The position numbers and the translations under genes are program-made. Positions 8,986 through 9,313 of a stretch of 14,109 bases of DNA are shown piece by piece. The stretch's first letter is position 1; every line of letters begins with the position of its first letter. This DNA is from Candidatus Heimdallarchaeota archaeon. GTDB lineage: Archaea > Asgardarchaeota > Heimdallarchaeia > Heimdallarchaeales > Heimdallarchaeaceae. Location of the stretch: NCBI GenBank assembly GCA_016839875.1, contig JAEOTK010000110.1:1-14109 (forward strand). The letters are read 5' to 3'. The notes below the pieces were generated by a model. The model was not told the DNA's origin and searched no databases. It worked only from the letters and a program-made list of their open reading frames with translations.

Positions 8986-9086
8986 AATGATAAAGAAAAC
9001 CTTAATAAAAGGAAAGCAGAGAAAAAAACTAGAATTCGAATTAAGTAGAATTCAAGAAAATTGGGGACTTGGCTCAGTCCGGTAGA

Positions 9087-9118
9087 ATCCTCAGGCTTGC
9101 GTGGCCTGTGGAGATTGA
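9087..9118 (+). other. Intron 1 of tRNA-Trp, in the D arm (32 nt)
   Basis: The D stem GCTC finds its partner GAGT only if about 32 nt are skipped. The register is ambiguous by two bases, because GA occurs at both junctions (9085-9086 and 9117-9118), so 9085-9116 and 9086-9117 give the same product. The intron forms a strong hairpin, TCC-T-CAGGC (9088-9096) with GCCTG-T-GGA (9104-9112), around a 7-nt loop. With cuts after 9086 and 9118 the hairpin base sits one bulge base away from the cut, as in a relaxed bulge-helix motif, though the central helix is poor (G-U pairs and one mismatch). Such sites are normally cut by the archaeal splicing endonuclease. Confidence 0.75.
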
Positions 9119-9132
9119 GTGGTTGGCTCCAG

Positions 9133-9218
9133 TGTGTGCACGTGTCAATGAATAGCAATTGGTTTAATGAAAATCTTATGATTACTCATTGGAGCGATGA
9201 GCGCGTGCAAACGTAGAA
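9133..9218 (+). other. Intron 2 of tRNA-Trp, canonical 37/38 position (86 nt)
   Basis: The junctions fit a bulge-helix-bulge. The 5' bulge is A36 G37 and T9133, and the 3' bulge is A9217 A9218 and A38, each cut after its second base. The central helix pairs C32, T33 and C35 with G9216, A9215 and G9213 (C34 opposite T9214 is a mismatch). Inside, GT/AC and then a 9-bp stem, 9137-9145 with 9201-9209 (two G-U pairs), close around the box C/D core. An intron at this place in tRNA-Trp, acting as a guide RNA, is known from Haloferax and related euryarchaea. Confidence 0.85.
9148..9200 (+). ncRNA. Intron-encoded box C/D guide RNA targeting its own tRNA-Trp at C34 and C39
   Basis: The order is box C ATGAATA (9148-9154), 12 nt, box D' ATGA (9167-9170), 7-nt spacer, box C' ATGATTA (9178-9184), 12 nt, box D ATGA (9197-9200), with a closing stem outside. 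Guide 1 (9156-9165) pairs over 10 bp with 9217-9226, and its fifth base before D' (G9162) faces C9220, position 39. Guide 2 (9187-9195) pairs over 9 bp with 9126-9134, and its fifth base before D (G9192) faces C9129, position 34. Positions 34 and 39 are the known targets of the Haloferax tRNA-Trp intron guide. The D boxes are AUGA, not CUGA; the C boxes have U at position 6, which restores the pair to the D-box A. The role is 2'-O-methylation by fibrillarin with Nop5 and L7Ae. Confidence 0.8.
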
Positions 9219-9313
9219 ACCAATTGGTCGGGTGTTCAAATCACCCAGTCCCCACCATTTTCAGCTTATTGTAAAAATTCTTATGTCTGAAAATCTAAGT
9301 ATTCTTTGATAAA

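Follow-up and report, generated by a model that had tools for sequence, protein, structure and literature searches.

A double box C/D guide RNA with U-A box pairs in the tRNA-Trp intron of a Heimdall archaeon and its predicted targets in the unspliced precursor

The tRNA-Trp locus and its intronic guide

The window (the whole 14,109-nucleotide stretch of DNA that was analysed) contains, downstream of a gene for an NMD3-like protein, a tRNA-Trp(CCA) gene with two introns, and the 86-nt intron of this gene holds a double box C/D guide RNA at positions 9148-9200 (Table 1). This protein marks the window as Heimdallarchaeota-like, as it shares 75% identity with its counterpart in the named Heimdallarchaeota MAG L001; the name NMD3-like is ours, and none of the NCBIfam models assigns one. 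The loci of all 17 confirmed relatives are titled Heimdallarchaeota or Asgard, and a 21-nt pattern from the 3' half of the tRNA-Trp gene matched in 17 of 17 of the relatives' genomes. The fold of the tRNA precursor comprises the anticodon stem and an inner helix. Neither ARAGORN nor Rfam at the gathering score detects anything here, the tRNA-Trp that carries the guide included.

Table 1. Features of the tRNA-Trp gene, its introns and the guide RNA in the window.
Feature	Position	Strand	Basis
Pre-tRNA-Trp(CCA) gene, CCA encoded, two introns	9063..9257	+	Spliced form folded
D-arm intron, 32 nt	9087..9118	+	Excision restores GGCTCAGTCCGGTAGAGTGGTTGG of relatives; G001 is without it
C34, predicted 2'-O-methylation target of the D guide	9129	+	D+5 rule; run of 9 pairs
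Anticodon-loop intron, 86 nt, position 37/38, contains the guide	9133..9218	+	Read from sequence and fold; same arrangement in L001/L027 (G001)
5' arm of 8-bp terminal stem, GCACGUGU, two G·U pairs	9138..9145	+	Pairs with 9201-9208
C box AUGAAUA (U6)	9148..9154	+	Read and parsed
D' guide GCAAUUGGUUUA, 12 nt, pairs with the 3' splice-site region, aimed at C39	9155..9166	+	10 pairs in a row; i-1 paired with position 3
D' box AUGA (A1)	9167..9170	+	Read and parsed
Spacer, 7 nt	9171..9177	+	Read and parsed
C' box AUGAUUA (U6)	9178..9184	+	Read and parsed
D guide CUCAUUGGAGCG, 12 nt, spans the 5' splice site, aimed at C34	9185..9196	+	9 pairs in a row; i1 and i2 paired with positions 9 and 10
D box AUGA (A1)	9197..9200	+	Read and parsed
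3' arm of terminal stem, GCGCGUGC	9201..9208	+	Read from sequence
C39, predicted 2'-O-methylation target of the D' guide	9220	+	D+5 rule; run of 10 pairs

The guide possesses two C/D-type motifs with conserved UGA and GA cores and is orthologous to canonical members, such as that of G031 (AUGAUGU, CUGA, AUGAUGA and CUGA). Its own boxes depart from the strict consensus of RUGAUGA and CUGA in all four places, and the pair between position 6 of the C box and position 1 of the D box (C6-D1) is a Watson-Crick U-A in both modules. The C box also has an A at position 5, so that the C/D module has an A5-U2 pair instead of U·U. Both guide elements lie within the 10-12 nt of box C/D guides, with the target at the fifth letter from D or D', and the placement in the 37/38 intron of tRNA-Trp(CCA) with targets at 34 and 39 is that of a tRNA-Trp intron guide. 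Two letters separate the terminal stem from the C box in the window and in G001, and one in G005, corresponding to kink-turn loops of 4 nt and 3 nt. A preliminary description of the locus had given the same coordinates, D boxes of AUGA, a U at position 6 of either C box and 12-nt spacing, all of which proved exact on re-reading and parsing; absent from it were the A5-U2 pair, the D-arm intron and the location of the guide outside the intron in most relatives.

The bulge-helix-bulge (BHB) central helix of the anticodon-loop intron, as read by hand, sets CUCC at tRNA positions 32-35 against GUAG (i-6 to i-3), with three of four pairs formed. The mismatch in this helix (9127-9130 with 9213-9216) falls exactly on C34, a predicted methylation site, and relatives with GAAG at the same position of the helix have the same mismatch. 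The D-arm intron can be placed at 9085-9116, 9086-9117 or 9087-9118 with identical exons, and its hand-read BHB helix is imperfect. An intron at roughly the same site is present in one of the two tRNA-Trp copies of G012 (L040). T-loop introns follow TTCAAA in L027 (G001) and L026 (G008), two members of the family that are not nearest kin, and were found in none of the other tRNA-Trp genes of the family that were read. Additional introns have thus been gained and lost in one gene within this family; many non-canonical tRNA introns are reported from other Asgard genomes (PMC11291895).

Orthologous guides and their box pairs

A guide pattern matched 24 of the 58 genomes of the class, some of them falsely. 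A covariance model built on 21 rows gave one strong match in the window (E of 7e-15, the window being one of the training rows; next best E of 1.4) and a match at E up to 1 in 49 of the 58 class genomes, of which 40 were accepted after the boxes had been read. G027 was left out of the counts, with a G-C pair in C/D and degenerate D' and C' boxes. The model matches in G018, G025, G049 and G050 were read and not taken as guides; those in G039, G051, G054 and G055 (best E of 0.13-0.63) lie outside the set that was read. Weaker second matches were not accepted either, including those of G036 and G041, whose sequences were read. Among 227 genomes of the phylum, 40 had a match at E up to 0.001, five of them outside the class, and four of these five were accepted (G073, G160, G165 and G168); G110, which is without a D box, was rejected as a guide. 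Weak matches are lost by the filters of the class and phylum searches, and little can therefore be read into the absence of the guide from other genomes. The comparison comprises 45 orthologous guides, from the window, the 40 class genomes and the four other Asgard genomes.

Box pairs were counted on the box parse of each guide, without the alignment, as MAFFT shifts the rows of G011, G012, G014 and G017. C6-D1 is Watson-Crick in 33 of 45 guides, with 22 U-A, eight G-C, two A-U (G019 and G030) and one C-G (G048). The other 12 comprise ten C·A (G006 and nine genomes of one clade, between G036 and G047), one A·G (G160) and one A·C (G073). Eleven of these 12 belong to intronic guides, in which the tRNA itself may assist closure of the motif. 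The corresponding pair of the second module, C'6-D'1, is Watson-Crick in 42 of 45 (23 U-A and 19 G-C, G020 being counted among the 23 although its C'/D' boxes are degenerate), and the three exceptions are all C·A (G011, G014 and G033).

Shuffling of rows, which ignores kinship, reached the observed pairing in 0 of 20,000 trials for either module, with means of 17.9 (C6-D1) and 21.3 (C'6-D'1). In an earlier count on 20 distinct rows, 95% of cells were paired, a level attained by 0 of 500 shuffles, and a slide of -1 to the neighbour gave 87.5%. As the shuffles ignore kinship, the stronger argument lies in the separate lineages with A-U, C-G and an isolated U-A (G034). Pair types are mixed within one RNA in four guides (G034, which has G-C in C/D and U-A in C'/D', together with G019, G030 and G048); in these, boxes fit their own partners in eight of eight cases and swapped partners in none of eight. 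The compensated U6-A1 pairs of the preliminary description are borne out by this covariation. The paired box change is real, family-wide and probably older than the placement of the guide in the intron.

The box change had also been taken for the new-looking trait of this site. The U-A pairs are real, but they are not special to it: they occur at the frequencies given above in both modules, and all U-A guides except those of the window and G001 are free-standing genes. Relatives with canonical G6 and CUGA boxes, named in advance as evidence against compensation, do exist in G028, G029, G031 and G035, where both modules are G-C. All four are free genes and do not lie at the intron, and both sides of the pair have changed together, which supports compensation. 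Loss of pairing between close relatives, the second adverse sign named, was seen in part: among the 24 rows of the family, C6·A1 occurs in the C/D module of G006 and in the C'/D' modules of G011 and G014, and the C'/D' module of G020 is degenerate though included among the paired ones. A strict canonical double pattern was found in 3 of the 58 class genomes and a strict U6/AUGA double pattern in 18, of which 14 show the Trp guide by our reading. With looser patterns, canonical matches numbered 0-4 per genome (in 26 of 58 genomes), and U6/AUGA matches over the 58 genomes at least 1367, against 505 in a reversed control.

Guide-target duplexes and the unspliced precursor

By the D+5 rule the two guides point to C34 and C39, as first described, and the duplex runs of 9 and 10 pairs are uninterrupted when G·U is included. 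Among the 278 12-mers that precede ATGA or CTGA on both strands of the window, a single one reaches a run of 9 to C34 and a single one a run of 10 to C39, namely the D and D' guides themselves. Such rarity of the duplexes argues against a chance resemblance. Cm34 of tRNA-Trp is known from Sulfolobus, Haloferax and Thermococcus (PMC7668247). C39 of Pyrococcus furiosus tRNA-Trp is likewise a predicted guide target, and no methylation was seen there in the tRNAs analysed (PMC7668247), which counts against the reading of C39 as methylated. The guide probably directs methylation of the same tRNA that hosts it.

Both a guide and a tRNA-Trp are available from 42 genomes, 28 with free guides and 14 with intronic ones (the tRNA-Trp sites of the window, G004, G005, G048 and G073 were read by hand). 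In all 42 the D guide is paired at positions 9 and 10 with the first two letters of the intron, i1 and i2 (one G·U at i1), and in 30 of 42 at position 11 with i3. The D' guide is likewise paired in all 42 at its position 3, with the last intron letter, i-1 (39 U-A, two A-U and one G-C). The letters at i1-i2 vary by clade (AG, AU, AA, UG, GU and GA), and the guide changes along with them: the window and G001 have U at i1 with A9 in the guide, and G001 and G019 have U at i-1 with A3. Joint changes of guide and intron are found at i1 in the window, G001 and G048 and at i-1 in G001, G019 and G073. When the genomes are collapsed to six distinct guide/intron types, the guide forms Watson-Crick pairs with i1 and i2 in 11 of 12 cases, a score matched by 0.3% of all permutations. 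The unspliced pre-tRNA-Trp is the likely target, for intronic and free guides alike, and the intronic guide of Haloferax is also reported to act on the precursor (PMC7994747, PMC4090602).

Most of each duplex lies in the exons, which would suit a guide that acts on the mature tRNA, besides or in place of the precursor, with the pairing to the intron as a by-product. Some intron pairs could indeed be replaced after splicing, position 9 of the D guide pairing with A38 and position 3 of the D' guide with G37 by G·U, each in 39 of 42. Position 10 of the D guide, however, would face C39 in the spliced tRNA and pairs with it in 0 of 42, and the intron pairing holds in the 28 genomes with free guides too. 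As the G37 wobble is possible in 39 of 42, the argument from i-1 rests on G001, G019 and G073; the main support for the precursor comes from i2 and from those clades in which i1 or i-1 changed together with the guide, and an action on the mature tRNA is improbable. Decay of a non-functional intronic guide, with the AUGA and U6 letters as drift, would fit the losses of single modules in relatives (G006, G011 and G014) and the degenerate C'/D' modules of G020, G027 and G033. It is very unlikely for the window, where both modules are intact, the guide changes are compensatory and two-sided conservation extends across the family. AUGA is frequent in AT-rich DNA, and the loose U6/AUGA pattern has many matches in the 58 genomes; yet a fortuitous likeness within an ordinary intron is refuted by the orthologues in 40 of 58 class genomes, in line with the rarity of such duplexes in the window, and deserves next to no credence.

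Guide location, mechanism and known systems

A tree of NMD3, a single marker with some open forks near the window and flagged long branches, places the window and G001 as sisters (support 95/96) inside a family of 24 rows (100/98). Within this family the guide is intronic only in the window and G001 and is a free gene in the other 22; among the 17 confirmed relatives, only G001 (L001/L027) has an intronic guide, and the other 16 have short introns. The free guides lie on the same strand, 112-4949 nt downstream of the short-intron tRNA-Trp, in 21 of 22 cases; that of G019 lies about 2.2 kb from tRNA-Trp on the opposite strand. In G002-G005 and G023, 112-116 nt separate C39 from the C box of the free guide. 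Intronic guides recur in ten class genomes (G036-G038, G040-G043 and G046-G048) and, among the Asgard genomes outside the class, in G160 and G073, all distant from the window; these may be older or separate. In another group of six genomes (G028, G030, G031, G033, G034 and G035), guide and tRNA-Trp are on different contigs.

By parsimony, the guide most likely moved from a free gene into the intron in the ancestor of the window and G001, as these two are nested among free-guide members and one entry is the simplest history. The opposite history starts from an ancestral intronic guide, as in Euryarchaeota, that departed from the intron repeatedly among Heimdall archaea and stayed there in the window and G001; it would account for the twelve intronic guides elsewhere and for the free gene still standing near tRNA-Trp on the same strand in 21 of 22 family members. 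It is the less probable of the two, as the outermost members, G019 and G016, also have free guides, and several escapes would be needed against one entry. The NMD3 tree, with Asgard genomes only in the comparison, favours a separate entry into the intron in the lineage of the window.

In 20 family genomes the free guides are enclosed by a longer conserved hairpin with a 3-nt bulge (alignment columns 27-39 with 116-124). Its outer stem comprises UCUY, the bulge and AUGUG on one side and CACAU and RAGA on the other, with C-G in place of U-A at one pair in 7 of 20 rows, and it is perhaps a processing signal. Excision of the free guides as BHB introns was considered and rejected, since by our reading the bulge lies on the side of the helix that does not fit a BHB. 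In G012, two copies of tRNA-Trp (L031 and L040) stand 3.7 kb apart, both upstream of the free guide, and one of them has an unrelated 5' part and appears to be 5'-truncated. Such a duplicate arrangement is a possible route for a guide to become flanked by tRNA halves.

We put at about 0.83 the probability that the tRNA-Trp intron of the window is a double box C/D guide with U-A kink-turns that methylates C34 and C39 of the unspliced precursor. What the sequences themselves provide are the boxes, the spacing, the guide-target pairing, the two-sided box changes, the guide-intron pairing and the fibrillarin and Nop genes of the nearest relative, G001, which are adjacent. On the opposing side are the exceptions to Watson-Crick pairing at C6-D1 and C'6-D'1, the 4-nt kink-turn loop, the BHB mismatch at C34 and the P. 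furiosus result for C39. The C/D and C'/D' motifs would fold as kink-turns in which the second stem pair after the tandem G·A pairs (C6-D1, or 4b:4n in our own mapping of the numbering) is U-A, not G-C. L7Ae, Nop5 and fibrillarin would assemble on the intronic guide, and the complex would 2'-O-methylate pre-tRNA-Trp at C34 and C39 before splicing, acting either in cis or on a different precursor molecule; the splicing endonuclease would then excise the intron.

Fibrillarin is over the cut-off in 56 of 58 class genomes (barely so in G002), and Nop was found in 54 of 58. Of 14 controls, five matched fibrillarin, the bacterium Thermotoga among them, with four over the cut-off, and four matched Nop, all archaea. 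In the 58-genome search G002, G007 and G010 gave only weak fibrillarin-like matches and no Nop match, perhaps because of assembly gaps. Two related genomes have fibrillarin reading frames with one in-frame TAG (G051:C21:205957-206631 and G056:C124:8815-9489), possibly a recoded stop.

The window shares with archaeal box C/D sRNAs the UGA cores able to form tandem G·A pairs, the 12-nt guides and the D+5 rule. Archaeal box C/D kink-turns have a strongly conserved G:C at 4b:4n and a strong propensity to U:U at 3b:3n (PMC5689011); the window, in contrast, has U-A at 4b:4n in both modules, and its orthologues use all four Watson-Crick pairs there. A Watson-Crick pair at 3b:3n is reported to prevent the folding of kink-turns in metal ions alone and not their folding by L7Ae (PMC4382518). 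With A5-U2 at 3b:3n besides U-A at 4b:4n, the C/D module of the window departs at both positions with the pairing kept.

A guide RNA in the tRNA-Trp intron had been noted beforehand as known from other archaea, and rightly so. The D+5 rule and the tRNA-Trp intron guide are known in Haloferax and Pyrococcus (PMC7994747, PMC4090602), where the RNA of Haloferax volcanii and sR50 of Pyrococcus lie, as in the window, in the tRNA-Trp(CCA) intron and target positions 34 and 39 of the precursor; the C at position 39 is a predicted target in P. furiosus also in PMC7668247. The window differs in its Asgard host, in its AUGA D boxes with U6 (the comparison with Euryarchaeota covering host and targets) and in having close relatives with a free guide gene and a short boxless intron. 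The arrangement of G002-G005 and G023, with a guide gene immediately 3' to a tRNA, is known from dicistrons with tRNA-Ser in Ignicoccus, tRNA-Pro in Thermoproteus and tRNA-Val in Nanoarchaeum (PMC7994747). In the Heimdall family, by contrast, the neighbouring tRNA is the predicted target itself, intron included, an arrangement seen at the level of gene order. Among the listed titles and abstract openings of the openly licensed literature, no report of box C/D guides in Asgard archaea was found.

A wider scenario, tentative and somewhat short of an even chance, is that the Heimdall tRNA-Trp intron is kept as part of the methylation target. C34 and C39 would be methylated before splicing, the short boxless introns would serve as docking site, and the neighbouring guide would have entered the intron once, an independent re-invention of the euryarchaeal self-guiding tRNA-Trp, with U-A kink-turns. 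The occurrence of all four Watson-Crick pairs at C6-D1 forms a natural mutational series, which suggests that the pairing is kept and not the letters, and the family's guides would escape a search based on CUGA. A guide that is intronic in some genomes and free-standing in others, and that pairs with the intron in 42 of 42, makes it testable why tRNA-Trp keeps its intron and whether methylation precedes splicing.
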